NCBI RefSeq assembly: GCF_949628215.1
Contig: NC_134276.1
Location: 134,726,125-134,790,124, forward strand
Origin: Phalacrocorax aristotelis
Lineage: Eukaryota > Chordata > Aves > Suliformes > Phalacrocoracidae
Direction of reading: 5' to 3'
DNA: 64,000 bases
Shown: one piece after another, positions 7,601 through 46,433 of the stretch
Position numbering within the stretch: the stretch's first letter is position 1
How the letters are laid out: every line of letters begins with the position of its first letter
Notes under the pieces: generated by a model
Seen by the model: the letters and a program-made list of their open reading frames with translations, nothing else
Databases searched by the model: none
What the model was told of the DNA's origin: nothing
Made by a program: the position numbers and the translations under genes

Positions 7601-7633
7601 TACACCAGTGCTGGCACAATCTTCTACATGAAT

Positions 7634-12335: not shown

Positions 12336-15300
12336 ATGAATCACCGAGGAAGAGTCAGTGCTGGAACTGCAGGTAACTACAAAGCCTTCCTTTCTGTCCT
12401 CCTGTAGAAGAAGGAAAAGGTCAGGGAAAACACAGGGCTGGAATAGATAGTGGGCATGGTATAGTGACTTGCTTCATAATAGGAGAAGGGGCTTAGGACA
12501 AGAGCAAAGAAACAGCTGAGGGAACTGGGGAGTGCCTGGGCTGGGAGAATGACCTTTTTCCCAGAGACAAGGGGAATGAAAGTCCAGGCAGACTATGGTC
12601 TGCCATCCCCTTCCGTGTTTTTTCTGTAAATTATGGGACCGAAGAGTGCTATCCTACTATTGTTATCCAGGTAAAACTATCTGCATCAAGCTAAGTACAA
12701 GTTACTTCTCCCATCTCTGGTGTCTCTAAGGAGAGCCAAGAGAGGGCTCTCCCAAGAGCTTCAAAGTGCCCGTTCCCCCTGTGGAAACAATCTGTTCTTT
12801 TTGTCTGCCTCTGCAAACACTGAGCTGGACAGTCACTCCTTTGAGTGACTATACACTACTGCATAAAAGGTCTTGAGGGATAGAGCCAAAATAAAGGTAG
12901 CTGAAAGAAAGAAGGTGAAAGAGAGGTGAGGAGGAGGGACATATGGAAAGAGCATTCAGTGAAAGACAGGAGTAATGGAGGGCCACAAGGATGATGTGTT
13001 GAGGAGAAAGGAGGTGTCACAGGACAAAGAAAGGAGGAGTGTAGTTTGGGAAAAGTACAGGCAGGGCTTGTGATTAAAAGTGAAATAAAAGAGCAGCTTC
13101 AGGGCAGGCCCCATGTTGCCCTACTCTGTGGGTCTGAGCCACTGCTAATGACAGCAGGACCTGGTTACAGCACATGTGGGGCTCCCCAGTCCTTGGAACA
13201 AGGGTACCAGCATGTTGTTGTGGTACAGAGCCACCTGCGTTATGCTGCCACTGACTCTGGGCTGGGGGATTCCCACTCTTGCCTTTTGTTTTTCAGCCCC
13301 AGCAGACAAGAGAAGCTGCTCCTGGCTGAACCCCTGGTTCTTCCTTGTTTCTGTCCTTGCTGTCAAAATTGCCTTTGTAACTGTCTGCCTTGGTGGGTTC
13401 CAGAATCTCGTAATTCCCCTGGGACAAAGGGAGCAGTTGACTGCCTTTTTCAGCTGGAAAAAAAATACCCTAGTCTCTGTGCCAGCTGACAAATGCCCTT
13501 TGCCAGAACAGCCTGTTCTGCTGCCCCTCTCCCTCCTCTGCCCTCTTAGGGAGTAGGGTCCCTTCCACAGCTAAGGTTCATTCCCTGGCAGGGCCTTCGT
13601 ACTGCTCTTCTCACTTTCCCACCTGCCTGAATAAAGCCAGTCCTGGATGAAGCTAGTCAGTTTCTCCCCTCCCGCCAAGAGCTGAGAAGTCTCTTTAGTG
13701 TCAGAGGGCATCTGAGTAGGTTCCCCGAAGGCTGACTCTTGGATATTGGTTCCCCTGACCTGGCCTCTCAAAACTCCCTGTGACAATTTTGCAGCCAAGG
13801 AGCCAGTGTGATCTCTTTGGAAATACTGGTACCAGGCTGCCCATACTTTAGCAGGGTGGGGGTGGATCCACCAAAATGCTCCAGCCGCATACCACACACA
13901 CTACCTGGGCCAACCAAAAGGGAAATCCTTTGCTTGTACTGTCCTGGAATATCATATTGCTCTGGGATGACTCTTCTGTGCCTCTTCTTAACAACCTTGG
14001 GTGAGGCCTTGACACTCAACAGTCCTACCCGTTCTTGATAAGGGTTAAATTGGTGCTCTAAAGCTGCAACACCCAGTAAGATTAAGAGGGAATGTATATT
14101 AATATCCCACCTTTATTAAGCTTATCCCATGACTTCTTTGACCCTTTCCTGACCCCATCCTTGAAGGATGTCTAAGCTGGGAAAATGAGTCTCTCAGCCA
14201 GCAGAGGTAAGAGAAGCTCATCTGATTAATGCCTGTTCAAAGGAGGGAGTGACCGGTAGTGGGAGAAACAGCCTGCTGTTTCTCATCTGCTTGTTTGATA
14301 CAGATTTTGGAGCTTGTTAACGTAACAGAGTCTCTGTGGGGGCTCTAAGCTAGATGGAGGAGGAGGAAAGGATGACAGTGGTGCTTTCTTTCTCTTTTCT
14401 CTCTTCCCAGTTGTTTTCCTTCAAGGAAGCTATGGCCAGTACAAGACACTGCTCCAGAATGCTAGAGTGGCGCTGCATCCCCACCATAGCTGCAGGCAAA
14501 AGTGAGTGATGCTAAGAGCCTCAGAAGCAACACCAAGAACCTCACCAAAATTTACTCTGGTGGCAGTCAGCCCTTGAGATCAGGAATGTGGTTGTCATCC
14601 AGAGCTGGATTCTTTTAAGGAAGGAAGCTGGAAAGTAGAGGAGAGAGAATGTTGTATTGCACAATTTTACTTAGGATGCTATGAAAACATGTTCTGGGCC
14701 AGTGGAAGAGGGTGGGTTGTTCCCGACCTACCTTTGACTACCCTTCCTACTTTTCCCCTCTCACTAGCCCTCACACACCCCTTGACTGCTAGTCCAGTTC
14801 ACTAATCTAGCTGAAAGTGCTTCATGCTTTTGTAAAGGGCTGGTTCAGTCCAGCTCTACTCCCTGTGCTGGCTCACTGCCTGTCCACACAAGCATCACGG
14901 TCAATGCAAGGGACAGGGTAGGAGGATGTTGTTATGCAGTTTAGAGTAGCTGGAGAGCTGGGCTGCAATCACACATTAAGTGATGCCAATGGCAAGTGCT
15001 AGAATTCCTGCAGTGCAAATTCCCAAACTCAGTTCAGAAATCTGTTCTCTCTTTTGCACTGCATTCAGAAACAGATTGCAGTTTGCACAGAGGCTAACAC
15101 ATACACCTGAGCTAGCTGTTCAGACTCCCTTTACAGTCCACGTTAAAAAGGTGTTGGCAGGTATAAAATAGGCATGGTCCACCTATTCTTATGGTGAACC
15201 CATAAAGCCAGACAAGCTGTGTTCTACACATGCTCAATTTGCTGTTCCCTGTAAAAAACCCCTGCCTTGCTCCACAAGGCACAAGCACGTTCACTCAACA

Positions 15301-17482
15301 GCAGACAGACCCTCCCAACGAACACTCTTAAGAATTCAGAAGAAATTGTCCAGCACTGCTTATTCATGTGGAAAAACTTTAGCTTTCATTGTGGAATTAG
15401 GAATAGATGGAAAAGTTTTGCAGAGTACATGATGGCTACAGGCCATCCTCCAGCAGTTCAGTGAAAGGTCAGGGTGGGCAACACAGAGACAGAGATCTTC
15501 AAGTTCCTTAGAGTGCTTGAACTTGATTTTGCATATTTTCTGATGCTCTCTGGTGCCATGGTCTCTCTTTCTACAAAGGTACATAATGGTACACCTTGAG
15601 TGGGTCTCAATATATAAGAGCAGAGGTAGGTTAATAAAAGTTTTGCTAGCTGTTCCACTCACTGGACTCTACTCCATCCATTTGGTGCCAAGAATGGGAT
15701 GTGAGATTCTGGGCTGTGCAGACAGCTCTTGAAGGGCACAGGGTTATCTGTGCTTCCTTGCTGTGGGTGAGCTGGAGCATTGGCTTGACCAGGGCATTGT
15801 CACCGCATGCAACCTGCTGAATAGCTCCTGACTGGGAAATGCAAGAATAGAGTCCATGTGAGGTCTGAGATCCAGAGCAAGCACCTAAGGTAGCACATAC
15901 AAAGGTGTATTTGTTTGTTGACTTTATTGGATGAACTTTTTGGCCTGATATATTCTATACAGAGATATATTCAGAGTAAAATATATACAGCTCATAGATA
16001 TAGATATATAGCCTCAAAGCATGTAGTCTCATGTTTTAAGATAATATATCTGTGGTCTTTTAATCTGTCATGTGATTTCTGGCTATAAAACAGATCTCTA
16101 GGAAAACATGGCTAGCATAAGGAACTGCCTGTGGTGGCAGCAAGGCTGTCAGAGCAGTTTACTGTACATGTCTGTCAGTCCGCATGAGCTGAGAGCTAAA
16201 CACTTGGACAACACCTCTCTGATGGAATTGTTCCCAGGGGAGCATAAGCCAACTAATTCCCATCTCACTTTCTCAGGAAGGGTAAGGCAGAAGCTGTATC
16301 TCTCACTAAAGAGGTGACAGAGTGACAGATAGAACAGATAGAGAAATGGAAAGGCACTTTAGGCAGGGGTCTTTTGGCAGGAACCTGTCACAACCTGGAA
16401 GAGAGCGTTTACCTCTGTGCAGGTTAAAAGTGTGGTTCAAATACCTCCCCTAACACTGGGACCCAACACTGAGCTCACTAAGATGAAGGACAGCACATCT
16501 TGTTCAAAAGCAGGATTTTTTACCCCACAGAGGAGAGCGGGACGTGCTGCCCAAAGGACTGGAAACAATTTCAAGAAAAGTGCTATTACCTGTCAGATGA
16601 TAAAATATCCTGGGCTGAGAGTGTGCAGAACTGCACTGGGATGGGCTCCCACCTGGTGGTGATCAACAGCGAAGCAGAGCAGGTGTGTGCAGGGCTGAGA
16701 GGGGACACAGCAGCTAGAGACACAGTGCCAGGCCCCGGAGGGGACTCAGCGCTCCCTTGCTCCTGCAGGGGAGGTGGGATGTCGTTTCTGCATCCCTTCA
16801 GCACTGGCTCCCCTCTGCCACCAGCCCCACCCCACAGGGGCTCCTGCCGCCTCCCTCTGCTCAGTCCAGCCACCTCATGGACATTGTGCTTTTTCCAGGA
16901 ATTCCTATTCAACTTGGCAAAAGGCGTATTTACTAATGCCTATGAAACAAAATACTACATAGGCTTAACTGCTTACGAAAATGGGCAATGGCAGTGGGTG
17001 GATTGGACTCCATATAGGAAGGCAGACACGTGAGTATCCCAGGGGAGTGAGGAAGATCCTGCAGTTCACATCCCTCAGCCCAAGTGACACTGTGTAAGGC
17101 AGGTGTGATTAGGGACGAGGGGTCTTTGTCCCTAACTGCACTATAAGTCAGAAAACTTGACTCGTTTTCTAGTAAAAAGGTGTTACTAGTCTTTGCTTTG
17201 CCAGAGCTCCTGATCTCCATTACAGTAATCTTCCCCTTTCTCTTCCACAACTGTTTGAGGTGACTTCACTCCTGCTGTCATGCATCCCTGTGCATTCCCA
17301 ATAGAGGAACTTTCTTTTACAGGTTCTGGAAACCTGGGGAACCCCATTTACTCTTTGCAGAAAAATGTGCTGCAATTCACATCAAGGGAAACACAGATTC
17401 CAGCACTTATAGTAACTGGAATAATATCATTTGCTTCACAAGTTGCTATCGAATTTGTGAACTGGCAGTCAGATTTGTCTGA
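12336..17482 (+). CDS. Activating-type CLEC4-like C-type lectin receptor (Lys in membrane segment)
   Basis: Exons: membrane 13297-13392 (phase 1-1), neck 14411-14501, lectin 16531-16682, 16899-17029 and 17323-17482 (stop TGA). A possible first exon is ATG 12336 to 12372: 12 codons plus 1 nt, donor GTAACT, phase compatible but otherwise unsupported. The membrane exon reads KRSCSWLNPWFFLVSVLA-VKIAFVTVCL, with a lysine in the middle of the hydrophobic segment, the feature used by CLEC4-family activating receptors to pair with ITAM adaptors. No ITIM is seen. The lectin domain has CCPKDWKQFQEKCYYLSDD, SWAES, YYIGL, QWQWVDWTPYR, GEPH, SNWNNIIC and YRICE. The neck exon is 2 nt shorter than its 93-nt homologue and shifts frame. 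Skipping it joins membrane and lectin exons in frame (phase 1 to phase 1). The gene is either a neck-less receptor or newly inactivated. Distance from the membrane exon and unknown exon 1 limit certainty. Confidence 0.7.
16614..16890 (+). repeat. Gene-conversion-like tract shared with the inverted-repeat lectin copies
   Basis: From 'gctgagagtgtgcagaactg' in exon 4 through intron 4 to 'acctcatggacattgt', this receptor is almost identical to 5208-5485 of the left arm; I saw only a few single-base changes, near the distal end. Immediately outside, exon 4 (CYYLSDDKISW versus CYYLADDEMSC) and exon 5 are clearly diverged. The tract keeps the 8-bp ctagagac segment that the left arm has and the right arm lacks. 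Confidence 0.85.
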
Positions 17483-20400
17483 GGAAGGAAACTCCACTTT
17501 GGATGAAGGACCTGAAGGAGTATCCTTGAGAAACAGCAGCTCATGAAAGAGCTGATGAAAAGCTCGTCTGAATCCACACAAATGTTTTATCTTTCAGTGT
17601 AGGATGAGGAAGCCTGCCACAGAATTGCAGCTCTAAAGGACCTCAATTCCCAGCCTGTGCCCCTGCATCTCTTTCCAAGCTAAAGATCAATGCTGGATGA
17701 AGTCGCTCAGGCTGATATCAAGGACCTACTGTGCCCCTTTTCAGTATCCTACTTCATAGATGGGTGCCCTGATCCTCCAGTACTTTCCTTGACTCCAGGA
17801 CCAGTTGATATCTTAATGATGAGGAAAAGGCCCTCTGTCTGTTTCATGAAAGGATACTGGTCCAACAAATCACTGGAGCAGAATTTGAAAGAGCATTCAG
17901 TGGAGTGTGCTTGGCCCACCTCTGAAGGGAACAATTATTTATGGATTATCTTCAATGTTAGTTTCTTCCTTCAGCATATTTTGTGTTGATAAGATAAAAA
18001 AAATATCAATACATTAATTCTGCTTTTTGCATGAGGCTGTCTTCTGAGCAACAAGTCCCAGGCCCTTGCCAACCCAGCCTCTCTGCGGTGGATTTAACTT
18101 TTCAGTGTTTTTAGCACCTAGGGTGAGAATATTACTGTGAGTGTGCTGGACTAGCCAGAAACAGGAACAACCAAACATATGAGAAAGGCTGTGAACCCTT
18201 TTGGAGAATCATGTGTGAGGGAAGCAACAGAGCAGACTGTGTAGTGGTCAATGCCACAACTCTTTGCCCAGGATGCAGCAGAAAGGAGATGGATTTTGGA
18301 GATTCTGCTGAGACACGTGGCAGGATTAAGCGTGGCAATGAAGGGAAAAGCAAGCCATCAAATACCACATGAAGGATAAAAGCCAGAGTCTCCCCAGGAG
18401 GGATTTCTAATGTGAGAAGAGGGTAGAAGATCCCTACCAGAGGCATCACTGCAAATCAGACACATAATCTTGAGCAAGTGCTCTGCTTCCCCCAGGTTCC
18501 CCAAACCTCTGTGTGTATATTCCTCCCTTTTCATCAATGAAATCCATACACCCTGAAGAGCTGGGAGTTTCTGGTTTAGGGCTAAAAATACACCCTGAAA
18601 AATCAGTTCTGGGTGGGTTTTTTTTATTCATCAAAAAATATGAGCACAATTTTGTGTCATTTCCACTTGAAGCAATGTATTTCCCAGGTTACTATTTTAG
18701 CCATTGGACCAAAACCTTGACTGTTGCAAGGTCTTGGTCTCCTGTTTTTTACAGTTGCTGGGATCTTTTTACAGCAGAGAAAACTTTGTCATCCTGTCCA
18801 ATAAGATAACAAACAAAAACAGTGCAATGGATGACTTCTTTTGATTTCCTAGAACTCAGTTCTGGAAACCACAGCAGCAGGGTTTTGAGGAAGAAAATGG
18901 GGCAGATAAGACACAGAGAGTGATCAATGTTTTACAGGTTTTAGAGGCAGCTGCAGTTCTGGCTGCTGAGAGGAGGTATGGGACAGAGCAAAACTCTCAC
19001 CAGAAGACTGGTTTGCAAGAAAATGTAACTTGCTAGAAACAGTGTCCATGCCCCAAATTCAGAACACAAAGTTTTTCTTGAGGTGTCTTGACGAAAGAGG
19101 GATCTTGAGAGATGATACTGGGTTTGCCTGCAGAAGGCTGAAGGGAAGTTCCTGATCCCGGCTCCCTGCAAGCATGCACACACATATACATGCATCCCCA
19201 AGTACAAACTCATTCTTTTACATTAGTTTTACAATACAGTAAATGAAGGTAGACAGAAGAATTGGTCCCTGTCCCTGCTTTGTGCAGCCATTGTTGAAGT
19301 GCAAGTGGTAAAACTCTGAGCAAGAGTTTCAGTCATGTCTGAGTGAAGCCAATGCCCTTGACTAGTCCCCCCCAATAGCAGCACTCATGGTTTAGGTGGC
19401 AATGGACTCCATATACAGTAGGTGTTTGCACAGGTGTAGAATAATACAAAAGCCTTCCTCTTAATGTATTCCTCTTTAATACAGATTTATCTGAAAGAGG
19501 TACTTTTCTCCAACATATGAGAAACAGGCATTATGACTCAAGTCTGTCTTGGTTCAGGAGGCAACAGATGTCATAGCAAGAGGCAGACTTAAAGATATAC
19601 AGTCAGGTATAGCACTTTTAAAAAGCTTCAGAAAGACAATCCCTGCATGTTGAACTAGGAAGTTGGGCAGAAAGGACAAAAATTTTATCAGATTAGCATA
19701 CTTCATGATGCATCTGTAGTCCTTGTTTTCAGGTGGGCATCCTGGCCACATCACACCTGCCTGTCAGAAAAAGACCTGGATGCTCACCACTCCTTGGCAC
19801 ATTACCTTTGGAAAGGAGCTCAGGTCTGAGGGTAGGGAAGGAGCCACTGTGACATTTCATGTCTAAGAATATATACACTGAAGACATGGTCTGACTGCAG
19901 CAAAAAAATTATGTTCTGGTTCAAACCTGAGCTAGCTTCTGGTTTTCCTCAAGAAACCATGTGATACCCAGCCTTTGAGATGCTGTCATCAGCTGGAAAG
20001 AATATCAGAAGAGCTGTATTGGAAGGACTGCCTGGGAATACACTTCATTCTCTCGCATATTGTATCTTTCTGCAGAGGAGAGCACAGTCAGTTCTTCCCA
20101 CTCCTTCAATCCTACTCTGCAAGTCACTTTGAAATTTCCCAGTGGCAACCTTGTTGTCAGGCAGGTGGTGGTCTGCCCTGCTGGTTTTGTCCCACAGTTC
20201 AGATAGCAGCCTAGGTAGAAAGGGTTGTTTTTTTCCCTTCTGCTGCAGGCAAGCACTATGTCCATCAGCAAGAGATGGAAAGAAAATGCCACGCATCACT
20301 GAGGAGAGAGAGAGGGGGAAGCAAGACATTTTCAGAAAACGTGATAAAAATGTGTATCCTGTATGAGCTGGTGCAGAAGAAGACATTGATTGTGCCCATG

Positions 20401-22735
20401 GACAGCTTTAGGCAGGAGAAGGCAAGACCAGTGCAGGTACTGTCATCTGGCTTGTAGGATCACGTGGAAGAAGAGTGGTGGTGCAGGGTCTCTTGCACTA
20501 ACAGTGTATTAACCCACTTTAAAAATTCCCTGTTGCCTTGGAGAGCACTTGCATATGCTGGCTTACCTTTCTTCTCCCTGTTCTGTCAGCTGATTCTTCT
20601 TTATAGGATACACCTGACTGTCTTTAATAAATTATGATCCTTCCCAAGCCAAGTGAAGAAATAAAGTGCAATGTATGTGTTTTTCATGACAGCCACTGTT
20701 TTTTTTTTTGAGGACTTTTCTACAAATTTTTCTTCCATGGGCCTCTGATATTTTTTATACAAAGCAGGGATTTTCCTCCCTACTCTTTCTCCTCTTTCTC
20801 ACTTTTTCTCTCTTTTATCTTACCCCATTTTTTCCATGCTCCCTTACAACATTTATTCCTCTACTTTTTTATGTTTCTTTGTACTCCTGCTGTCTCTCAT
20901 ACTGTTTCCCCTTTTATTTCTTTTTTTTCTTTTAATTTGGTTTCCTTTTACCTTTTCTTGCTAGACCATGGATGAGGATCATACAATGTTGTTTTGAGAA
21001 CTAAAAGAGAAAAATGTCATTTAAAGGAGTTCTGACAGAGGAAACACATCTGTTCTGGCTTTTAAAAGTTTATAAGAAAAGAGGAAAGCGGAGATTATTG
21101 AATATGTGGAAATTACTATTCCTAGATAAACTGATAATGAAAAGTAACACTCAACCAAAAACTTTATTCTACAGTGATTTGCTTTAATGGTACATAGGAT
21201 TTAACCATTTTTCCCTTGCTCCAAACTACTCCTATAGCTCTCAGAGGCCTGGGTAGGCGCCCACAGAATCATTTAATAGATATACCCTTAGCAGATGTCA
21301 GAAGACAGTTCCTGCTGCAAAGACCTTGTGGTCTAAATGCAAAAAAAAGAAAGTAAAGGAGATGAAAAATAATGGACAACTGAACTGAAACTGCTATTTC
21401 TGAGCTGTAAATTAGTGAGTGTCATAAGGGAACCACTCTCTTGCGAAAGGGCTTGTGTTAGGTAAGATGAGCTTCTTACTCAACTGGAGTTCAGTACACC
21501 AGGAATAATGATTTGTACCATGTTGCAGTATGCTACAGAAAGTAATCACCACTCTGATAACTCACCCTCCTGAGCCACTGACACCTTCTGAGCAAGTCAC
21601 AGATCAGGGAATAGGATGTCCCCACAATGGTGGGCAGCAGTGCCCAGCAGAGGGTCTGTCTGTTTTGACCCCCTTTGCGTTAGTCTGTTTTTCCTGTGCA
21701 AAAGAGGTCTTACGGTGCATCCCTGAACAGAGCACCCCTGCTGTGTCCCTTTCTTGGTAGCTTGAATTGAGTAGTGAGTTGATTTGGAACCTCCTGTTGG
21801 CTGTAAAAATCCTCCTTGTACAATAGGTGTGTGAGCTCACTTGTGGCAGGCTGGCCACATTTGCTGTGTAACTTCTTAATGCCAAATTGTTGTCCGGCTA
21901 AAGTCAGGATTGGATGAGCTAATATGGATATTATCATGGCAGCGGCCTGGCCACACTACTTCAGAATTGCTGGGGATTTCTGCTGCATGGTATGTCTGCA
22001 TACATCTTGAAAGGTCCATTATCTGGTACAAAGTAGAAGGACTAGGCTAGTAATAGCTTTAAGTCCCAATGTTTGCATTGCAACCAAACACGACAGCAGA
22101 GGAGAGAAACAATGAGCATACTGCTAATGCACTTGCACCTTCTTGCAGGGGCATTGTTGTAACTCTGTTGTGATATTGGTTTAGGAATTTTCCATTTCCA
22201 CCCTGGCATCTCATTCCCACCTTTGTTCTGCAGTTAGCTGCCCATTCCTTATACTGATACAAGTGTCTACTGTGCTGTATTGTGTTTTGGATTAAAACCC
22301 AAAAAATCTGGGTCTAAGACCACTGCTCTTTCCTCTTTCTTTCTTTTTTTTTTTTATGGAGAAGAAAAATAATTCTCATTCTTCTCACAAATCACTTTCA
22401 TGAAACACTGAAATCAGTACCACCACCACACAATGAACCGTGCTGAGAGAGGAAGCAATCAGCTGGTGAGAATGGTGGGAAGACATTTCCTCTCTTAAGC
22501 GCTCTCTGCACAGGCAGGAAATTATCCTGTAGCGTTGCCACTGATTTGCTGAAAGGAGCACAGACAGGGCTAAAAATGCCTGGCCCAGGTTTTACAGAAT
22601 AAAAGAAACTGGAAGAAAGGCACTGGTGAGATGCTGAGCCCAACATAAACAGGTCAATCAACAGGTGAAGGGTTAACACTTTCATAGCTGCAAACATGTT
22701 TGTTTCCAGTTTCTGCCACTTCAAATGAAGTGTGG
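17483..22735. other. Intergenic, no recognisable gene
   Basis: About 5.2 kb after the second receptor. It presumably begins with that gene's 3' UTR; I saw no canonical AATAAA close to the stop. Open frames are short and lack lectin or other family motifs. Confidence 0.5.
20700..20965. repeat. Pyrimidine-rich low-complexity tract
   Basis: About 265 bp are dominated by T and C runs (for example 'tactctttctcctctttctc'). The open frame through it is a composition artefact, rich in Phe, Leu and Ser. Confidence 0.8.
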
Positions 22736-22737
22736 CC

Positions 22738-23312
22738 AGCTGGTCGAGGGAGGTGATTCTGCCCTTCTACTCCGCTCTGGTGGGTTCCAACCTTAAGTAC
22801 TGAGTCCAGCTCTAGAGCCCCCAACATGGAAAGGACAAGGAACTGTTGGAGCGGGTCCAGAGGAGGGACACAAAAATGATCCGAGGGCTGGAGCACTTCT
22901 CCTACAAGGACAGGCTGAGAGAGTTGGGGTTGTTCAGCCTGGAGAAGAGAAGGCTGAGGGGAGACCTTATTGTGGCCTTTCAGTACTTAAAGGGGGACTA
23001 CAGGAAGGATGGAGACAACCTCTTTAGCAAGGCCTGTTGTGACAGGACAAGGGGTAATGGCTTTAAACTAAAGTAGGGTAGATTTAGACTGGATATAAGG
23101 AAAAAAATTTTTACAATGAGGGTGGTGAAACACTGGCACAGGTTGCCTAGAGAGTTTGTGGAGGCCCAATCCCTAGAGACATTCAAGGTCAGGTTGGAGG
23201 GGGCTCTGAGCAACCTGACTGAGTTTAAGATGTCCCTGCTCACTGCAGGGGGGTTGGACTAGTTGACCTCAAAATGTCCCTTCCAGCCAAAAGCATTCTA
23301 TGATTCTGTGAT
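22738..23312 (+). mobile_element. CR1 LINE 3' end fragment
   Basis: 5'-truncated CR1: it starts in the ORF2 C-terminus ('REVILPFYSALV'-type block), continues through '[23 protein letters not shown]', [14 protein letters not shown] and the 'tggatataaggaaaaaa' 3' UTR block, and ends with 'cattctatgattctgtgatt'. The tail is present, so this is a normal 5'-truncated insertion and one of the better preserved in the window. Confidence 0.93.
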
Positions 23313-24189
23313 TTGACCTTCCTCTTTAGATTGCAAGCTTGAGACATATTTGGTCCGAGAGAGTATATTCAAGAGACTATTGATTAACCAACACACTACT
23401 AAGAAATGAATAAATCAATTAAATGACCAATAAAGTAATTAACTCCTTTCATCAATTTACAGGTCTATGATTTCTCACAGCTACTTCCAATTATGCAGCT
23501 ACAGTTTATCCCTCAAACACAAGCAGTACTGGGTTGCACTTCTGCTGCCCTTTCCTCTATCATCCCACATCACTTAGTTTTAGGATGGAGTCCTATCCCA
23601 CCTTACTCCACCCTCCCACATCTAGTCTTTCAGATACAGACCTGATGGAGCGGTCAGTGGGTTGTCAAAGGGGGATCCCTCCAATGTTCTCCTGGATTTG
23701 GGTCCCAGGATCAGGTTCACTCAGGTGTGAAGGATCTAGAGAGGAAAAGAGACAGGAATAAGTTAAGATCTGCCCTAGAGGTTAAGGAAAAAATGTTTCA
23801 AGCTCTTGGTTTTGCAAACCAAGTTGGATTCTGAGCTCAGCTGCCAAAGGCCATTGTGTGGTATCCAGCAAGGACCAGCCAAAAACCAGTACCAGACACA
23901 GCAGCAGTATCAGACTACTGTGGAAGGAGTATGTGAATTAAGCACTCTTTCATCTAGAAGAGGATCTCTTGGTCATGCAGCCAAGTGATATGCAGTCATA
24001 TATCTCAAAGCAGCCATGAAGGTCTGATCTGAGTGGACTTTGGCCAAGGAATCCTGAGGATTGGCAAGTTTAAGTGCCAAAGCAATGCAGTTGCTTTGGA
24101 AGACAGTTGCTGTGTATGGTGCTTTCTTATCTATAGTTTCTGTAGTGTAAGAGTGCAGTATGAAACTGACCTGCCATTTAGTACCTTTG
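23313..24189. other. No recognisable feature
   Basis: Sequence between two CR1 fragments with no gene or repeat signature that I can name. Confidence 0.5.
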
Positions 24190-30530: not shown

Positions 30531-31745
30531 ATCACTACAGTCGGCAACAGGGTTTAGGTTCCTATGACCATGGGACACTCTTCGAGGATCAACAGCTGCT
30601 TGGAAGAGATACTTGGAAGAGATGGCACCCACCTAAGTGGAGCAAAAACATCTTTGCCAACAGGCTAACCAAGCTGATGGGAAGAGAATGGTGATCACTG
30701 GGCCAAGAGGGTGATGATCAGTGACGCAAAGTCTAGTTGGAGGCCAGTTAACTAGCAATGAACGCCAGGGTTGTAAACTAGATCCAAACCTGTTTAACAA
30801 CTTCCTTAATGACCTGGATGTTGGGGCAGAGTGTACCCTCAGCAAATTTGCTGATGACAAAAAATTGGGAAGAGTGACTCCTCCCTCCTCCAGAGGAACA
30901 TGCTGCCATCCAGAGGGAACTTGATAGGCTGGAGAAATGGGCTGCCAGGAACCTCATGAAGTTCAACAAGGGGAAACGCAAAGCCCTGTGCCTGGGGAGG
31001 AATAACTACATGCAATAGTACATGCTGGGGGCCACCCAGATGGCTTGGTAGAAAAGGACATTGGGTCCTAGTGGACACCAAACTGAACATAAGCCAACAA
31101 TGTGTTCTTGCAGTAAAGGTGGCTAATGACATCCTGGGCTGCATTAGGAGAAATGTTGCCAGCAGGTCAGGGGAGGTGATCCTTCCCCTCTGCTCAGCAC
31201 TGGTGAGGCCACACCTTGAGTTTTGTGTCCAGTGATGGACTCCCGAGTACAAGAGAGACATGGACATAGTGGAGAGTGTCCAACAAAGGGCCACAAAGAC
31301 GATGAAGGGACTGGAGCATCTCTGCTGTGAGGATAGTCTGAGACAGCTGGGACTGTTCATCCTGGAGAAGAGAAGGCTTGAGGGGGATTTTATCAATGTA
31401 TATAAATACCTGAAGGGAGGGTGCAAGAAAGACAGAGTAAAGCTCCTTTAAATGGCACTCAGTGACAAGACTAGAGGCAATAGGCACAAAAAGAAACACA
31501 GCGAGTTCCTTCTGAACACCAGGAAACACCTTTTTATTGTGAGGGTGACCAAGCAGTGGCACAGGTTGTCCAGAGAGTTTGTGCCGTCTCCATCCTTAGA
31601 GAAATATAAAAATGAACTGGACATGATCTGGGAAACTGGCTGTAGGTGGCCCTGCTTGAACAGGGGGTCAGACCAGCTGACCTTCAGAGATTCCTTCCAA
31701 CCTCAACCATTCTGTGATTCTGTGATTCTGTGATTCTGTGATCCT
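30531..31745 (+). mobile_element. CR1 LINE, internally deleted, with extended 8-bp tail
   Basis: It begins with the ORF1 C-terminus (SYDHGTLFEDQQLLGRD, then SKNIFANRLTKL). It jumps to ORF2 reverse transcriptase at about 30720 (TSNERQG, LFNNFLNDLDVGAECTLSKFADD), continues through GLEHLCCEDSLRQLGLF and the KHSEFLLNTRKHLFIVRVT block, and ends at 31705-31745 in several tandem copies of 'attctgtg'. Endonuclease and N-terminal reverse transcriptase are absent. Several frame changes show it is dead. Confidence 0.9.
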
Positions 31746-32049
31746 GTGAAGAGCTATAAAACAGGAATTACAGAGGAAGGAGAGGATGACCAGCAATCAT
31801 GTTAAATCAGGAAGTGGTTCTTCCAGGAAAGGTTCCGGTTTGATATGAACAGAAATAATGAACATATTCATAGTCAACCAAACAAGGCTGAAGTGGCATC
31901 CCCACAAGGACATGCACATAAATACAGAAGTGCCCATAAGACACATTAATGGAGAAAACTTTCATACCCTTTCTGGGGAATCAGCATGCTGGGGTGCCTC
32001 TCTGATGTGTCAGTACGCCAAGGCATGCAGCACAGGGAACAAACAGGAG
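31746..32049. other. Short unassigned segment between two CR1 copies
   Basis: About 300 bp directly after the tail of one CR1. It may be the decayed start of the next one. No clear motif is visible until about 32050. Confidence 0.4.
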
Positions 32050-35514: not shown

Positions 35515-35828
35515 GTTGTAACAAGGTTGGAATCAATCTCCTCTCCTACATTTCAAGCAATAGGGCAAGAGGAAATGGCCTCAAGTTGCACCAGGGGAGG
35601 TTTAGATTGGATATTAGGAAAAAAATCTTCACTGAAAGGGTTATCAAGCACTAGAACAGGCTGCCCAGGGAAGTGGGTGAGTCACCACCCCTGGAGGTAT
35701 TTAAAAGATGTGGAGACATGGCACTTAGGGACATGGTTTAGTGGTGGACTTGGCAGTGTTAGATTAATGGTTGGACTTGATGATCTTAAAGGTCTTTTCC
35801 AACCTAAAGAATTCTATGATTCTATGAG
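35515..35828 (+). mobile_element. CR1 LINE 3' end fragment
   Basis: It starts in 'atagggcaagaggaaatggcc', passes 'ggaggtttagattggatatt', 'ggctgcccagggaagtggg' and 'tggttggacttgatgatctt', and ends with 'attctatgattctatgag'. This is a clean 5'-truncated CR1 with its tail. Confidence 0.95.
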
Positions 35829-36211
35829 TTCGAGGCAAAGGAAGAAAAATGGTGAAAAGAAGTCTGTTAAGTAGGACCTGTGAAAAAAGATGAGGCTTGG
35901 CACTGGGAAAAAGCAGTTGGAAAAGGGGAGGAGAGAAGCATCTTAGCCACAAAGAGGCTGTGAAGAACACAGTGGTCATGTTCCCACCAAAGGACACTGG
36001 AGGACATTAACTGAAGTGGCAGCAGAGAAGGATTTTCTTCTACATGAGATACACCATTGTCCTGGAAAGCTGGAGAGGACCAGATCGCCAGGAATGGAGG
36101 CAATTTCCAGCACTGCAATTCTCCAGTTCCCTGATACCACCACAAGTCTCTGCTGACCACGACTTTCTGACAGCTGTCTGTGACACTGCTTCATGTTGTC
36201 TTGTGTTACAG

Positions 36212-36345
36212 TATCCTCTGGAATTAAGTCAAATCTCTACAAGTGTCAATACTACACTGGTGGAAATACCCCTATCAACCAGTGTGGGTGGCTAGTTTCC
36301 AGAAAAGGACTCCTGAATCTTCCCATCTGTCAGATTACATGTTGA
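36212..36345 (+). other. Exon-like cysteine-containing open segment of unknown identity
   Basis: A 44-codon frame begins after a good acceptor ('ttgtgttacag', 36201-36211) and ends in TGA at 36343-36345. It encodes LYKCQYYTGGN, NQCGWLVSRKG and LPICQITC, with four evenly placed cysteines and no resemblance to the lectin exon 6 in this window. No partner exon was found. It may be a decayed last exon of another gene or a chance frame. Confidence 0.25.
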
Positions 36346-36689
36346 AGAGCATCAGGCAGTTATGAACACCAGGAACCTCACTACTGAAAAAGGATCAGAG
36401 ACTCCAGGTGTCCAAGCTCCCAGACAGACATAGGGGTCTGGGAGGCAGCTACTGGAAAGACCAGAAGTCTTGATTAGCTACCAGAGACACCTTTTTCTCT
36501 TTGTGTCTGGCATGAAACAGAGTATAGGGAAGACTGGGGGATTTAGGGGCCAGCTATGTATAGACTGAATGAGTAAGCCTCGCTACTGGAGGGGTCCATA
36601 TTGCATATGTGTAAACATATATTTTTTCTGCTACCAGGCCTTCATCCTGCTAGCAGCCAGAGAGGGGAACAGGATCAGGGTGCTCGTAT

Positions 36690-36990
36690 TGTTTTGTCTT
36701 TGCATCAGTGCTTTCTGCCTGTGGTGACCTGTGTGGCTACTTATATGTACCTATTCTTTTTCTTCTATATGTACCTACATATGTACATATTGTACATATA
36801 AGCTCAGTCTCACTACTGGCTGGAGTTGGGGATATGGAGCTGCAGCAGCCTTGCTTCTGATGGGCTATGGGATTCAGCAGTTCCTGCCACCACACACTGC
36901 CGTTCCACTACTCCCATTAATTGGCTTAGGAAGCCAAATATTCTGGTCACCTTGTCTCCAGTACAAATTGTCCCTTCTGTGTGGGACACA
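36690..36990 (-). repeat. Older diverged inverted homology (right side)
   Basis: Reverse-complement partner of 7270-7600, with frequent substitutions and small indels. A stretch of about 445 bp (36991-37436) then separates it from the right arm, against about 15 bp on the left side. Either an insertion here or a deletion on the left explains the difference. Confidence 0.8.
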
Positions 36991-37436
36991 GAGAGAGGAT
37001 TTGCTTTCATAGGTAGCACAGAGCTGTGCAGCCAGGAGATGTGCACCAGTGCTGTGTGGGGAGCTGGCACTGTTTGGTCAGAAAGGCTTAAAGCAGATGA
37101 TGTTTCCTGATGCAAACAAAAGTGGGAGCACAGGGACAGGAAGTGGGAATGGGTGGAGAAAAGCTGGGATCCATTGTGGCATATGGTCTGCAGCAGTACA
37201 CAAAGGCACATTAGGCAATGCACTTCTGGATGGGACCTCATGTGCAGCAGCAGCCCTGCCTATTCTGCAGCATCATCTGGCATGGGTAGGTATGCCCTTA
37301 AAGGGACCGCTTAGGTTTCCACCTCCCAGAAAGGCTGCTGTGTCAGGTGAGCCTAAAATCATCTCTGAGTTGGGAAGAGTTCTTCCTAGAGGTGACACGG
37401 AAGACCCCAGTCATTTTGCCAGTGGGGACAGCTCCT

Positions 37437-40400
37437 CATACTTCATCAGCCGTGTGCAGGTCAGACTCCTGACACAAGTTCCTGTTACTCTTCTGGGCAA
37501 GACTTTCAGCAACGGAAACAAATACTTGTAATATCCCTAGAGCTGCTTTCTTGTGCCCAGTCCCCTTCAGAGCTTTAGCTCTGTGCAATGGACTGCGTAG
37601 CCAGGTTGTCTCTGAGGGGTTTACTCTCGCTGGGTGGATGCAACTTCTGCTGCAGTAGCTGCGTAAGCTGCTATCCTGGCACAGCAACATGTTTTGATCC
37701 TGCTTATACAAAACACCTGCAGCTTAGAGAGGGAGAGAAACACACACACATAGAGCACAGAGCCTTTTTCATTGGTCTAATACCGTATTTTTTCTTATAC
37801 AGGCAATCAGTATCTGTTCAGCAAAACCAATGCAAGAATAAGATATTCTCTGAGTGCCCCAAGAAAAAGCAGAAGCCTCTGCTCAAGCAGAGAAAGGAAA
37901 TAGCAGCTCTGAACATCTGTCTTCCATTCCTGTGTCTTCTTTCTGGAGAACTCAACCTCTTTTCAGCCACCGGCTGCCAGACCCACTCAGAGGGAAGAGG
38001 ACACAAGAGCCCAAGACCTGCTTTCATGATGCTGTGTCTTCATGTGTTCCATGAGCTGATAATGTGCACTGGGAGTGCTCTACACAGGGTAATACCACTT
38101 CCACTCACATTGTCCCACCAAGCAGAGTAAAGGTCCAGGATCCAGGGCCCACCATCCCTCCCAACACAGTCCTGAGCTGTTCCCAGCTCATCCCCCAGTT
38201 TTACTCAGGATGAAGGTTGCTCTGTCACACAGTTACTGCTGCAGCTTCACAAATGCGATAATGCTCCTCACATCGGACATCGTTCCAGTTACGCGTTACT
38301 GAACTCGTATGGATTGCAGCGCACTTCTCAGCAGCCACATTACTTGGTTCCCCACTCCGCCAGAACCTGAGATAGAGACAGACTGTTACTCCCAGCGTAC
38401 CCCATAGACCAAAGCTGGAAAAGGCCACAGGACGATGCAATGCTTGGCAAGGAGAGAGAAAACTTCCAGGTGTTGATTCACGGACAGAAGCAGTACCCTA
38501 CCTCCCGCTCTGCTATCCCACTGGCACCAGTCTCATGGGGAAACCTACCTTCTTCCTCCAGCCAGTCAGTCCTGGTGGGGGCAGTTGCTCACCACCACTC
38601 ACCCCATGCATTTCACACCCAGCAGAGGCATGTGCCTGCCTCCAGTGCAAGTTTGTCCTCCAGAAGCAGACGCAGCAAGGACAGCCCTGGTGCCCTGTCT
38701 CTCCCACAGCATCACAGCACTGGCCATGCCCATGCATATACGTGCACATGTGCATGGTGGGGGCAGTATGGAGGTCAGGCAAGGCTGGTCATCCTACCCA
38801 GCCAGGGTTCTTCCTGCTGGCCAGATGCAGCTTCTTCTGTGCCTGCAGCATTGATGGCCACATCACAGGTAGTTAACTAACAACCACTAACCAGCATGGA
38901 TGGGGCTGTGTGAACCTGGTGTCCTACACAGCCCTCTCCTGCTCCATCATTGTCCTCTCACAGGGACGTGTCCCACCTCCCTCTCATGCACCAACAGACA
39001 CCCTCACATCTCTCCTACTCTCTCGCACTACCAGGAGCTGCACCGAACACTCTCCATCCAGGGGTACTCACGCTGCCGCCGCATTATATGGAGTCTGGTC
39101 CACCCACTGCCACTGGCCTACCACCTGTGCATTCAGACCGATGTAGTAATTCCGTGCTAGTGGATATTGTCGTAGCTCGTTAGTGAGGAAAACCTGGAAA
39201 TCAGGGAGAGTACAATGTCCATGAGGTGCCGGACTGAGCAGAGGCAGGCGGCAGGAGTCCCTGTGGGGTGGGGCTGGTGGCAGAGGGGAGCCAGTGCTGA
39301 AGGGATGCAGAAACGACATCCCACCTCCCCTGCAGGAGCAAGGGAGCGCTGAGTCCCCTCCGGGGCCTGGCACTGTCTGCTGTGTCCCCTCTCAGCCCTG
39401 CACACACCTGCTCTGCTTCGCTGTTGATCACCACCAGGTGGGAGCCCATCCCAGTGCAGTTCTGCACACTCTCAGCACAAGACATCTCATCATCCGCAAG
39501 GTAGTAACACATTTCTTGAAATTGTTTCCAGCCCTTCGGGCAGCACGTCCAGCCTTGCCCTGTGCAGGAGAGATCACAGGGGTGAATGCTAATAACAAGA
39601 GAGATGGTGACTGCAAGGGTCCCAGTTCTCCAGGAACAATGCTCGTGTTCTCCTGAGGTCACTTTTCCTGACAGAAAGGGCTTGAAAAAATAAGGATACT
39701 ACAGATAGTTCCTCCAATTGCTTTGGGGTCTGACCAGTGAGCTTTGTGCACACAAACCCAGGGTAATCCTTGTAACATGATCTCAGGTCTTGACAAAGTT
39801 ATTTTGCTGATCTGGTTTGACTTCTCCTTGTACAGTCTCCTTCAGGGCTTTAGCCCCAGGGAACAAGGAATCTGGCTTCTTTCCCTTGACTAGAGCGGCA
39901 CTTTTATTGTTGCTCCATTGTTAACCTTCCCTGTGCAGCTCTATTGCTGTCCCTTTTGTTTTGTCAGTGTTCACAGCCACCCTGCCCTTCAGGACATCAC
40001 TGGCATGGCCCTCTCCTCCCCCATAGCTGTTAGCAGGAAACCCTTTTCATCCCCACCTCTCTCCCCTGCAGTCTGCCTCTCCGGAGTCTGCTCCCGCTCC
40101 TGCTTGCTGTCATAGCAGACCCCAGCATTCATTGTCCCCATCCCAAAGACCTCCTGCACCCCTGCCAGCACTACTGACCTTTCCCTTGTGGCACTGCAGA
40201 GACGCACCACCACTCCATGAATTTCTGCTGCAGGGCTGTGGGCTGGTCGCTGCTATGGGAGAAGGATGCGACTGGAAAGGGAGAGGAGAGGCAGCAGGAT
40301 TACCCCTTCCTCCCAGCTCCTCACACACCATCTCTGGGCTTCTCTCTCTTTTCCCCATTTCCCCACCAAGCACTGTCTCAGCATCACCTCTCCTCAGGCC

Positions 40401-41770
40401 GTCTCTTTCCATTTCACAAGTGGCAACTGCCACCCTCTCAGCAAAGGGAACAGGCATTTCTGCTCCCACCATCTCACAGCTGCCCGCAAGGACTCCTTTG
40501 CCCAATGACTGACAAGATCTAGCCAGGGTGACCTGGCCAACAAACCTAGAGAAGCCCAAGACCCACCCAAGCAGTGCCTGGTGGCCATTTCTGGCCTGTG
40601 GTTTGCCAACAGACCCTGTCCCAGCACCTAGCAGCTGACATCAGGCCCCCTTGGGGGCTGTGCAGCTGAAGGTGTGGGATTGGTGGATCCCTGGTCCAAG
40701 GCCCTGAGAAAACTGGCCCAAACAAGTGCCATGGCTGCCTTCCCAGGCAGGAAGAGACAATCTTCCATGTCAGAGAGCAGAAGTACCACTGGAAGGACCT
40801 CACACCGAGGACATGCTGGGCAGGGTGGGATGGATTCCACCCAGCCACAGGCATTTACTATGTAGATACCTACAGCCAAGCTGCCCGTCTAAATCTCTTT
40901 ACAATCAGTGAATAAAAAGGAGCACTTTGGTGACACGGTTCCTCTCTTCCTAAGATAGACATCAACAGTAACTTGGATGAGTAACACATAAGAAGGGTCT
41001 ACCTCGGCAGCAGCCAAGACACTCCAGGTGAAGGTAATCACATACAGCTAGAGCTGCTGAAACCAGGCTGCAAGGTAAACTCCTAACCAGTTTATGGGGA
41101 ACAATACAGTGTTGGTGACAGGTGTCAGCAGGCCACATCCACAACCTGAAGGACTGCAGAGTTATCACTAACTCAAAGACTCTGGGGATCTTGATTGCAA
41201 GCTGATCAGGGTGTGCTACAGATGTCTATTTTTATCAACCGTTTCACACGGAAATACTGTTACTAGTGAGGAGGGCGCAGTAATCATAGCGGCCTCTGTG
41301 ACTGATGAATGAATTCCTATAACAGGAGCAGGCTCAGAGGAGATGGGCAAGGGCGATGCGTGGCTGACCACACCTGTGCAAAGAAAGGTGGCCTCGTCTC
41401 AACACAAAGGGGACCAGATGGTGGCCTTTGTTCTAGTTCAGGCGAGTGAACTAACCAGTGCTATCAGGTGAGTGAATTCACCAGCTGTGTAACCGTTCAT
41501 CCCTCTAAAGAGCAAAAAGAAGGCAGTGTCTTCCTAAGATAGCCAGACCAGCATGGGGCAAGGGTATTCGTGCCTCAGTTCAAAAGCATATAAAAAACTG
41601 AATGACCAACAAGACCATGTCTGAAGAAAGCAATGAGCTGGCTTTAGCCCACATAGTCCTTCTTGGTGAATGGGGACACCCAGTGTCTTGATGTTGACCA
41701 TGTTGCAGAGACTGGCAATGAGAATCACATTTTTATTGTGATTCAACTGTGCATTGCAATCACTACCCTC
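37437..41770 (-). repeat. Right arm of the 4.3-kb near-identical inverted repeat
   Basis: Reverse complement of 2921-7255. It contains exons 3-6 of the complete minus-strand CLEC4A-like gene. The outer end (41763-41775) lies inside the fossil lectin exon that is longer in the left flank, so the arm boundary is a rearrangement or conversion breakpoint. The two arms flank a spacer of about 30.2 kb that contains the second receptor. Confidence 0.95.
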
Positions 41771-44700
41771 TGCTAAGTGCAATTTGTACATGGGTTTCTG
41801 TTTAAATGCATTGCTGTGTCACTCTGCTAAATCAAAATCCTATGTAACATCAGTTAATTTGGATAAGTAAATTTGACATTAAAGATTAGTCCTTCCTTGT
41901 GTGGAATATCTAAAAGAACCTGGCCAGACAGTATTAGACTCTAACAGCCTACCCTAAACCTCCCCAACCATTTAACAGAGTATTGTGAAACAATACATTT
42001 GGAAACAAAGCAACACAGGCTTCTGGGACTTCATCAATTTAGCCTGACTGCATGCTTTCTTCCAGAATCCATCACCTTTATTGACAATTTGTGCAAACAT
42101 GCCATGAATGAGAATGCAGAAAATGAGAACGCAACATTTATCACCATCTCTGCAAACTGTGTGTGCAAGAATCACTTTTAATGAATTATGCTAGTAGAAT
42201 GTAGTTAACACTAAAAAGGTATGAGGGTCTGCACTGCGCAGTTAATCCTGGAGATACCAGGACTAACTGTGAAAAGCTGTGTTTTCTATTAGGACACGGA
42301 GTGTGTCAATGCACCTAGAGAGCTCAAGTGCAGGTCCAGCTGCCTGTATAGACACTTATGCTGTCATCTCCAGGCTTTTTTCCCTCTGCTAAATGTAATT
42401 AAGTTCTTCTTGTGTGGTAGAGAACTGTTCCACGGTTCCAAAGAGAATGAGCAAGATGGGGATGTACAATCTGGGAACACTGAAAAGGCCTCAGGGTAAA
42501 CAGTGGAAGATTTGGGGGATGTATGCAGACATGTACAAAGTCAGGGCAGAAAAGAGACCTTACAGAAAGCCCAAGCAACCCTGAAATTCGAAGATGGCCA
42601 TGCTTCACGTGGGGCATTAGACTAGAGACCTCCAGAATTCCCTTCCTATCTAACTCTTCCCATCATAAGAAAGAGGATATGTACAACAGAACCATCTTGC
42701 ATAATTCTGTGGTAGTCCCTAGTTCCTGCACACCAGTTGGCCAAAACATCTGGTTTGGCTGGCCTGCAACAGAGAAGTTTGTGTCATGTTGCAACTGTAT
42801 CTAACATTAAATCCCCACCGTTTAAATAATCAGGAAAGATTTTGCTTCTAAACATACCTTTCAGATACTCAACACTGAGGTTTTCTGAGACTAAATGTTG
42901 ACACTTGCATCCTTTCTCAGGACAGAAATGGTTCCTGAGTAAAAGCTCCCTCCTGGCTGGAGATGTTCCCCTTTGGGCTTCGTTTTCTCTGCTTTTCTCC
43001 CAGCATTTCCCCCAGACCTCTCTCCCGTAACTAGTCTGCAGATACTCACCAAGGAGGAAAATGATAAGGGCAATGCACACCAAGAGGAGCAGCAGTGAGA
43101 TCAGCCACGGGAGCCAAGAAGGGTATTTCTGGGAGTGGTGCTCATGCTTCTTCATTTCAGGAGGTACTAAAAGTACCAAACACAACAACACAATCAACTA
43201 TGCTTCAGTCAGCCTGCATACCAAGGATGTACAACTCAAGGGACATCTGCTCAAAAAAAAGTGCAGTTTCATTTCTGATGTGGAAGTTACACAGTCTGGG
43301 AGAGGGGCAGATTGGGACAGAGCAGGGCATCTCTGTGTTTTCTGGAGAAGGTCAGGTTCAGCGATACTGTTCATAGCTCCAGCCCCACTGGTGAGCTAGC
43401 ATTGCTAATTGCTGGTGTTTGGGGGTGAGGCCTTCACATGCCTCAAAATCTGGAGTGAAACCATGTCTTTCTAGATTGTGCCCAGAGCTGCCAAATAAAA
43501 TATTGTTCTGTGTGATACCTGAGGCATTCACATGAACAGTTTTTGTTGACTTCTCCCCAGAAAACTTTTTACGCCTGCTTCAGTTTCTTCTCAGTTTTTT
43601 GGACTTTCTGTGTAGAAGGTTGGTGTAAACTGAATGAGGGCAGGAGACAAAAAATGTGTAAAGCAATGATGGCACAGAATCACTGGAAGAGAAAAAGAAA
43701 TTATTTTCCCTTCCATCTCTGCTTTCCAACCCAGGGTTCAGAGATTTGCTGTAGCAGAATTAGGCTGTGCTGGGCTGGGTGCCTGGGGAGACCAGAGGGC
43801 TGTGTCCAGCAGCCTGAGTAAAGTATCCTGCTCAGATTCACACTTGCCAGGGCCTGATTTTTGTCTAGAGGAATACTGCCAGTGCTGAGGAGGTCACATG
43901 AAGGAGAAGCAAACACTTGTTAGGAGACTATTCTAGGTTGTGGCACATATACAAGCCAGAGGAAACAGGAGGGTAAAGAGACAACAGCACTCGCTGCAGG
44001 ACAGGAGCAAAGAAGTTTTGAGAGAGACTGATATTAATGATAAGCTTTACAGAGACCTCATTCATTGTTCAGCATGAAACTCCCCAGTCTGCCAGCAACC
44101 ACATGTGCCTGCCATGCCTAGTGAACAAGACTTTCAGAAACCTGCTGTTTGGGGAAGGCCTCTGACTACTTCCGAAGAGCTTGGGGAAGGCTGTTAGAGC
44201 AGGGCAAAAAGCATCATCTTTCATTATCACAAGAGTAAACATTTATAGACAGACAAGATCCAGATTTCCCTGGCCAAATCATGTTTTTCTAGCCAGAGCT
44301 TTTGTCTGTAGTGAAAACAAGGACCTGGATCATGATCTGGAGTCCAGCCACCTATTTCAGACAACAGATCCAACCAGTCCAAACGATTTTTTCTGATGTG
44401 CTGCATGTCCACAGATTAAATGTTTAACCTGTGCATCTCACATTCACACCCATGTGGCACAGAGAGCACTGGCGGTATGCACTCACCTCACCAACACAAC
44501 TGAAGTGCAGTAGATTTTGTGCATACTCAGTGGGTTAATCTCCCTGCAGAACACTTCCTAGAGTTAGTCTGCATGCTTGCATCATGTCCAGCATGATCAC
44601 AACACAACAGACCTGATCCTGATGAGCATGTGCTTGTTATTTAGCATGTAAACTCAACATCTCCTAGGCAAATGTAACAAGTGCTGTGCAGCACAGATGC

Positions 44701-46433
44701 CTACATTTCTGCCTGGGAAATCCTGGTTGGAAATGCAGGAATCCTAACTGCACTGTGGTATGAAACCCACCCCGCTAGTCTCTGCCATCTCCTGCCACAG
44801 ATTATACATTGATTAGCTGCTGCCTTCTCCTCTCTATCTTCCAATGATTGCAAATTTTGTTATCTCTACAGCCCAACTAGAAGAGGCTACAGAAGGGAAA
44901 ACCCAGGTGAGCTTGGCCATTATCAGCATGGAGCCTGCATGGCCAGAGTAACCACTCAGAAAGACAACAGAGCGGCAAGACTCCCTCAATATTTCAACAA
45001 TTTTCAATTGTAACTCTTATCTTACAAGCATACTATGAGGTTGTGAGAGGCATTAGCACTGTGTGCAATGGTACTACTGGACACTTCTCTGAATTCAACA
45101 TATAAGCACTTGGACAGGTGCACTAAAAGACAGACCCTAAGGACACAGCCAAACCTATAGCATGAGCCTGGCATCAGCAGCATAGGCAAACATGGCAGGA
45201 TAAGGTGTCTTTGGAACAGGTCACTGGGAACATAGCAGAGAAATTCCACCACCCCCACCTCACCATGATGGAAATACTAGCTGTAACCAGAACCAGCTAA
45301 TCTTGGTGCATTGAAAACAGTGAGCTTTCAAGGCAGTCAGGAGTATGCACATTCTTTATTTCCATGACTCATACCTTAGAGCAGGCCAGGAATAAACCTG
45401 GAGCTGATGCCTGCTCTGTTTGGGATTGTAAAACTGAGGTGAAGCAGTATATAGGCAAGATAATATCCTTAGCAGCAATAATTATATATTTATTCATTTA
45501 TGCACACCTACTTTTACCCCTCTGGAACCTGCTGTTGTGTAGGGTCCTGCATCTAAGGGTAGAAGAAATGAGCCATACATGGAACAACTCTATGTGTTCC
45601 TACTTGTGGCATAATAACTACAGAATACATACTGACCAGAACATGTCTTAAATTTGTACAAAGCCTAGTAAAGGCACCATTTTACAACCGTGATTTTTAA
45701 AAGCAATGAAAAACTTGTTTGGTGTGTTAATTATTTTTCAGGAGTGGTGGCAGAGTGAAATTTTCTGCTCTTCTGTAAGGAGGCATATTTGTTCCCTACT
45801 CCTGCTGTCTCCATAAGCAGGAATCTGTAGCCTCACTCTCTCAGAGGGAGGAGCAGTAGCAGCCAGGGCTTGGGTTCATTTGCTGCCATTTGCTGCCCTG
45901 GGAGCCCCTCCACCTTTGTGACAGATCAGATTGATTGTAATAAACCGTACTCTCTATTGTTGGTACTCAGTATTTGTCCAAAAATTACTCTCTCATCCAA
46001 GACTAGATAACATATAGAGAGGCAGCTACTGCCTGCATGGTACCAGGGATAAGGACTAAGGGGGCCCAAGTATGTTCCTTGCTGAATGCTCACTTGAAAC
46101 CTACTCTTTGTGCTCCCAGTAGTCATCTTTGTTCATGTTGCAGCTCCAACCACCTAAAGATTCCCACCTCTCCTCTTGTAGACATTCCTTGACCCTCTTA
46201 TTTCAAAACTCCTCCAGTCTGCACATGTAATGGTAGACAACTCCTTTTCCCCACCAATTTGTCAAGGCCAGGTAGGAACCAGTCACAGAAAGAAGTTTCC
46301 ATTCCCTGTTCTTCAGCCCTGCTCCTTCCAGGTCCCCTTCCCTTGAACGACCCATCCATTCCTTACCTTTGACCACTGCAGCTGGTGATGCATTGTTGAA
46401 CTTCACCTCAGCGTAGGTGATTTCTGATGCCAT
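38225..46433 (-). CDS. CLEC4A-like: CLEC4A/DCIR-like inhibitory C-type lectin receptor, complete
   Basis: Six exons on the minus strand: 46433-46367, 43166-43050, 40271-40179, 39559-39408, 39193-39072 and 38366-38225. The total is 693 nt, i.e. 230 residues plus stop (human CLEC4A is of similar size). All junctions are GT-AG and phases agree (1,1,1,0,2). Residues 1-22 are cytoplasmic, starting MASEITYAEVKFNN; ITYAEV (Tyr7) is an ITIM, as in mammalian DCIR, predicting SHP phosphatase recruitment. Residues about 43-61 form an uncharged membrane segment (LISLLLLLVCIALIIFLL); it is a type II protein. Residues 62-92 form the neck. The lectin domain (about 93-230) has the six canonical cysteines, an NCT glycosylation site, YYIGL, QWQWVDQTPYN, the EPS loop motif (as in human DCIR) and WND for calcium. 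The usual Trp of SWAES is Cys here (SCAES). Exons 3-6 lie in the recent inverted repeat and exons 1-2 outside it. The lectin half may therefore have been overwritten by conversion. NECAP1 lies 12 kb beyond exon 1. Confidence 0.92.
42598..42650 (+). mobile_element. CR1 LINE terminal fragment
   Basis: The segment 'gcattagactagagacctcc' plus 'agaattcccttcctatctaa' matches the last ~50 bp of CR1 ('ttggactagatgacctccag'-type). It lies in intron 2 of the minus-strand lectin gene. Confidence 0.6.

Follow-up and report, generated by a model that had tools for sequence, protein, structure and literature searches.

A candidate pair of C-type lectin receptors with opposed signalling parts, and an inverted gene copy beside them, in Phalacrocorax aristotelis

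Inhibitory and activating C-type lectin receptors have already been described in a bird, the duck, where DCAR1 and DCAR2 are predicted to be activating and DCIR to be inhibitory, and where they cluster with the Mincle branch (according to the account in PMC6522936, which reports Guo et al. 2008, Mol Immunol 45:3942). In PMC3061320, the immunoreceptor tyrosine-based inhibitory motif (ITIM) of DCIR is given as ITYAEV and recruits SHP-1/2, while DCAR (clec4b1) has an arginine in the membrane, takes FcR gamma as its partner and is 91% identical to DCIR over the carbohydrate-recognition domain (CRD). Mincle likewise has a membrane arginine (PMC11632378), and NKG2C-type receptors use a lysine or an arginine with DAP12 (PMC10004456, which labels the residue as negatively charged, an evident slip). 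The conserved calcium site of such lectins is described as comprising five amino acids (PMC4505424). Here we analyse a window of 64,000 nucleotides from Phalacrocorax aristotelis (RefSeq assembly GCF_949628215.1, contig NC_134276.1, positions 134,726,125 to 134,790,124 of the forward strand) that contains two lectin receptor genes: one on the minus strand with an ITIM, here called R, and one on the plus strand with a lysine in its membrane segment, here called P.

We consider it probable, if with clear reservations, that the window holds part of an avian cluster of C-type lectin receptors of group II, of the Mincle/DCIR/Dectin-2 kind, in which R is inhibitory and P of the activating type, so that their signalling would be opposed while their ligands would differ. 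The inhibitory/activating design having already been reported in ducks, at least in the description cited above, P and R would be a further example of the same pattern. The two systems, as far as the duck is known from that description, share the bird host, the predicted inhibitory and activating types, a similarity to APLEC (the antigen-presenting lectin-like receptor gene complex) and the clustering with the Mincle branch. Unlike the duck, with its two activating genes, the window has one intact-looking activating gene along with a copy of the ITIM gene that is without the first two exons.

Two receptor genes and their signalling parts

Both strands were read, and exons were assembled into gene models according to their splice sites and phases (Table 1). 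R (minus strand, 38225-46433) encodes a type II C-type lectin of 230 amino acids in six exons, with no internal stop, consistent exon phases and AG/GT at all borders. Its cytoplasmic ITIM has the same six residues, ITYAEV, as the DCIR motif quoted in PMC3061320, and its membrane span is uncharged. A bare ITIM in a first-exon-like open reading frame (ORF) is common by chance, an ITIM-like match being present in 14 of the 508 such ORFs in the window (nested ORFs counted separately). What nevertheless sets the motif of R apart is that it shares a reading frame with a transmembrane exon and equals the one quoted for DCIR.

The membrane span of P contains one lysine, aligned opposite a cysteine of R, and the exon-1 candidate of P has neither a tyrosine nor an ITIM. 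An earlier note on this DNA had drawn attention to the exons, to the ITIM and uncharged membrane segment of R and to the membrane lysine of P, all of which we find; it had also named an ITIM-bearing first exon as the discovery that would overturn its view of P, and an ITIM occurs in none of the 36 first-exon-like ORFs upstream of the transmembrane exon of P (7256-13296), the candidates among which such an alternative first exon was sought. A scan of both strands of the window for transmembrane-like exons of phase 1/1 produced 7 rows, with scores of 3.25 for the exon of R, 2.37 for that of P (in three nested versions) and 1.66, 1.68 and 2.12 for three others.

The exon structure that the note gave for P holds, with a correction at the stalk, where the exon of 91 nucleotides (93 in R) does not keep the frame when joined to the stronger acceptor of exon 4, at 16531. 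P can accordingly be modelled in two forms, one of 191 amino acids in which the stalk exon is skipped and one of 227 that uses the acceptor at 16514; within 13400-16500 no other phase-1/1 stalk exon has acceptor and donor scores of at least 4, a level at which weaker sites would escape. The 227-residue model is preferred because it preserves the spacing of R, with 13 residues from the stalk cysteine to the CysCys of the lectin domain. The 191-residue form served as the query when families and structures were searched, the lectin domain being identical in both forms.

Table 1. Positions of the lectin receptor exons and of the duplicated and exchanged tracts in the window
Feature	Positions	Strand	Remark
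R exon 1: start codon and ITIM (MASEITYAEVKF...)	46367..46433	-	ITYAEV, as quoted for DCIR
R exon 2: uncharged transmembrane segment	43050..43166	-	exon model, transmembrane-exon scan
R exon 3: stalk	40179..40271	-	its Cys stands 13 residues ahead of CysCys
R exon 4: lectin domain, first part	39408..39559	-	exon model, Pfam
R exon 5: lectin domain	39072..39193	-	exon model, Pfam
R exon 6: calcium-site motifs EPS and WND, then stop codon	38225..38366	-	
P exon 1 candidate (MNHRGRVSAGTA), without ITIM	12336..12372	+	resemblance to R exon-1 region uncertain
P exon 2: Lys-bearing transmembrane segment (APADKRSCSWLNPWFFLVSVLAVKIAFVTVCL)	13297..13392	+	exon model, transmembrane-exon scan, alignment
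P exon 3: stalk, 91 nucleotides	14411..14501	+	requires acceptor 16514 or skipping
P exon 4	16514..16682	+	without exon 3, the stronger acceptor 16531 applies
P exon 5: lectin domain	16899..17029	+	exon model, Pfam
P exon 6: EPH and WNN where sugar-site motifs are expected, then stop codon	17323..17482	+	
226-bp tract identical in P and L, covering the last part of exon 4 and the greater part of intron 4	16614..16839	+	read as gene conversion
L: nearly identical copy of R 37437-41757 in inverse orientation	2927..7255	+	
R-side arm of the inverted duplication	37437..41757	-	
L exons 3-6, span	4413..6467	+	0/509 coding bases differ from R
Exon 4 of a fourth lectin gene, truncated by the junction with L	2836..2925	+	

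If both genes are expressed, ligand binding by R would lead to phosphorylation of the ITIM tyrosine and to the recruitment of SHP-1/SHP-2, by which nearby activating signals would be damped. P, with no signalling motif of its own, would hold an adaptor bearing an immunoreceptor tyrosine-based activation motif (either DAP12 or FcR gamma) through its membrane lysine and would signal by way of Syk. DAP12 generally prefers lysine. As the basic residue of P is a lysine and not an arginine, DAP12 seems at least as likely a partner as FcR gamma. In these respects R resembles mammalian DCIR (CLEC4A), with which it shares the ITIM, the uncharged transmembrane segment, the single CRD and the EPS motif (PDB 5b1w), and P resembles rodent DCAR (CLEC4B) in its lack of an ITIM and its basic transmembrane residue, although it differs from DCAR in having a lysine where DCAR has an arginine and in two calcium-site changes.

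Descent and sugar sites of the lectin domains

P and R both have the features of group II C-type lectin receptors: a type II arrangement, an N-terminal hydrophobic segment and a single Pfam Lectin_C domain (E-values of 9.9e-17 for R and 6e-17 for P). Against solved structures both score higher with Mincle (132.8 bits for R, 129.7 for P) than with DCIR (93.8 and 98.0, respectively), and the identity of the CRD of R is 47-48% with Mincle, 45% with Dectin-2 and 38% (49/128) with DCIR. In a tree of nine sequences, P and R join the two Mincle rows, apart from DCIR, BDCA-2, DCAR, Dectin-2 and MCL. The support for this Mincle-P-R fork is 90/91 on the whole CRD, which is under the program's mark of 95; on exons 5-6 it is 97/97, where the program cautions about long branches and P and R are not resolved as sisters. 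Within these limits, score and tree both place the two CRDs nearest to Mincle (CLEC4E), and for the CRDs a simple orthology to mammalian DCIR and DCAR is rejected. The DCIR/DCAR type that the earlier note had assigned to the pair therefore survives as a design and fails as a line of descent. Both differ from Mincle: R has an ITIM, P has a lysine instead of an arginine, and the Mincle-type EPN/WND pair is absent from both proteins.

Between P and R, identity is 65% over the CRD (86/133) and 51% over exons 5-6 (44/87), to be compared with the 91% quoted for DCIR and DCAR in PMC3061320. At the sugar site, R has EPS and WND, as DCIR does, and P has EPH and WNN. On what we take to be the identity of the five calcium-site positions, P departs at two of them. 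With this departure and the 51% identity in the exons of the sugar site, a pair binding the same ligand is unsupported; of the inhibitory/activating pair proposed in the note, the design is what holds, in the ITIM of R and the lysine of P. Over the 87 codons of exons 5-6, P and R differ by 0.51 nonsynonymous (dN) and 2.45 synonymous (dS) substitutions per site, and this contrast suggests that both have been kept as proteins, the dN/dS ratio of about 0.2 being subject to saturation of dS. Apart from this, exon 4 of R encodes SCAES, giving an extra cysteine in the lectin domain, at a site that is SW in P and in five of the seven aligned mammalian sequences, TW in MCL and VW in Dectin-2.

Exchange of DNA between the genes and an inverted copy of R

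The earlier note overlooked a third element, here called L, which is an inverted copy of the 3' part of R (4.3 kb at 99.5% identity, the arms being about 30 kb apart). L carries the stalk and lectin exons of R and is without exons 1-2; the transmembrane-exon scan finds no membrane exon upstream of it in the window. The 20 columns at which the two arms differ comprise 12 substitutions (including two on the right edge) and one gap of 8 bp.

P shares with L the identical 226-bp tract of Table 1, from which R differs by the 8-bp gap, and in exon 4 the initial 90 coding bases are 81% identical between P and R. In windows of 60 columns, the identity of P to L is at least 93% up to about 16888 and falls to 33-70% in windows starting at 16889 or later, as far as 17499. 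We read this pattern as a recent gene conversion that ended short of exons 5-6. P and R would be related by duplication and have recently exchanged DNA, and since the exchange spared the exons in which the greater part of the sugar site lies, we think opposed signalling with different ligands probable. Outside the tract, P exons 5 and 6 match those of R with scores of 58 and 54 (highest shuffles 30 and 32), and the P stalk exon with its flanks is the best match to the R stalk exon among 1259 tiles, a comparison from which R and L themselves were left out, with a score of 59, the unrelated region that follows it having 43.

These resemblances bear on the alternative that P and R work independently, P as a Mincle-like sensor of birds and R as a regulator resembling DCIR, and share a locus without forming an opposed pair. 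Such independence would agree with the placing of both CRDs nearest to Mincle, with the 51% identity of exons 5-6 and with the differing sugar-site motifs; we nevertheless hold it to be unlikely in view of the exon 3 similarity, the identical 226-bp tract and the opposed signalling parts, all of them features of paired receptor families.

That L is a false inverted duplication produced by the assembly might be supposed from the absence of any coding difference over 509 bases and of any substitution between 4731 and 7247. We think this improbable, given the 10 substitutions elsewhere in the arm besides the two at the right edge, the 8-bp intron difference at which L sides with P, and a left flank that is different and ends in another lectin exon. 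Moreover, beyond the right end of L the inverted match returns (7268-7570 against 36994-36693, 84.6% over 306 bp), which fits an older duplication or a shared repeat and not a copying error. Because the match resumes at this lower level, L may have either of two histories: an older inverted duplication whose centre was re-homogenised by conversion, or a recent one that ended by a shared repeat. At the left junction, GAGGGTAG is common to the junction and the source.

The lectin exon at that junction belongs to a fourth gene, of which it is the truncated exon 4. A possible remnant of the stalk exon of this gene near 2168-2211 scores 35, which is under unrelated tiles at 43, and is not claimed. 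L begins in the intron that follows the membrane exon, directly 3' of the truncated exon and on the same strand, and the phase that exon 3 of L requires is the one in which exon 2 ends in P as well as in R. It is conceivable, though very unlikely, that signalling exons of the fourth gene, if they survive to the left of the window, splice to exon 3 of L and create an activating receptor by exon capture; if so, its ectodomain would be identical to that of the inhibitory R, and the two would be a newly formed pair.

Points against an opposed pair, other contents of the window and significance

Several observations weigh against P as a functional, activating partner of R. Its exon-1 candidate is short, and whether the region around it is homologous to the exon-1 region of R is uncertain, as the answer depends on the gap costs: with loose costs, the stretch 12060-12460, which was positioned by hand, scores 65.8 and exceeds all 1263 tiles (the best of which score 63.6, for the tile covering P exon 1, and 63.0 elsewhere), whereas with stricter costs the region scores 42 and is surpassed by 351-1050 with 67 and by three other tiles with 43, and the core alone scores 26 against up to 36. 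The transmembrane exons of P and R, compared as DNA, score 32, within the range of 500 shuffles (mean 18.2, standard deviation 3.6, highest 36), and exon 3 alone scores 27, exactly the value of its highest shuffle. Because these exon-against-exon scores are within the shuffle range, the homology of the transmembrane exon and exon 3 draws also on their position, phase and flanks. At the stalk of P, the stronger, out-of-frame acceptor scores 5.4 and the in-frame acceptor at 16514 just 1.1, a weakness that could possibly reflect a decayed P, although the exon 2 acceptor of R itself scores 1.4. The saturation of dS in exons 5-6 belongs here as well.

That P is a decaying pseudogene, its stalk frame lost and its sugar site eroded, and that R works alone, as the 91-nucleotide exon 3 and the changes at two of the five calcium-site positions might indicate, seems to us distinctly unlikely, since exons 1, 2, 4, 5 and 6 join cleanly, with no stop or frameshift, since the acceptor at 16514 restores the frame with exon 3 together with the exact Cys-CysCys spacing, and since dN/dS in exons 5-6 is about 0.2 (on a saturated dS).

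The remainder of the window includes a reverse transcriptase ORF at 576-1187 (Pfam RVT_1, 5.6e-17), with similar repeats elsewhere in the window, and 5.1 repeats of ATTCTGTG at 31709-31749. The ORF looks like part of a long interspersed nuclear element of the CR1 type, and the repeat resembles the tail of such an element. No other Pfam family passed the cut-off in the 10 ORFs scanned out of 531 of at least 55 amino acids (the lectin proteins having been scanned apart), no Rfam family reached its gathering score in the window, and ARAGORN found no tRNA there.

To return to the proposed cluster of an inhibitory R and an activating-type P, the joining in a bird of a DCIR-like ITIM to a Mincle-type lectin domain would bear on the question of which receptor type is the oldest of the cluster. 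The inverted copy and the identical tract, for their part, indicate how such clusters can reshuffle their ectodomains and signalling exons.

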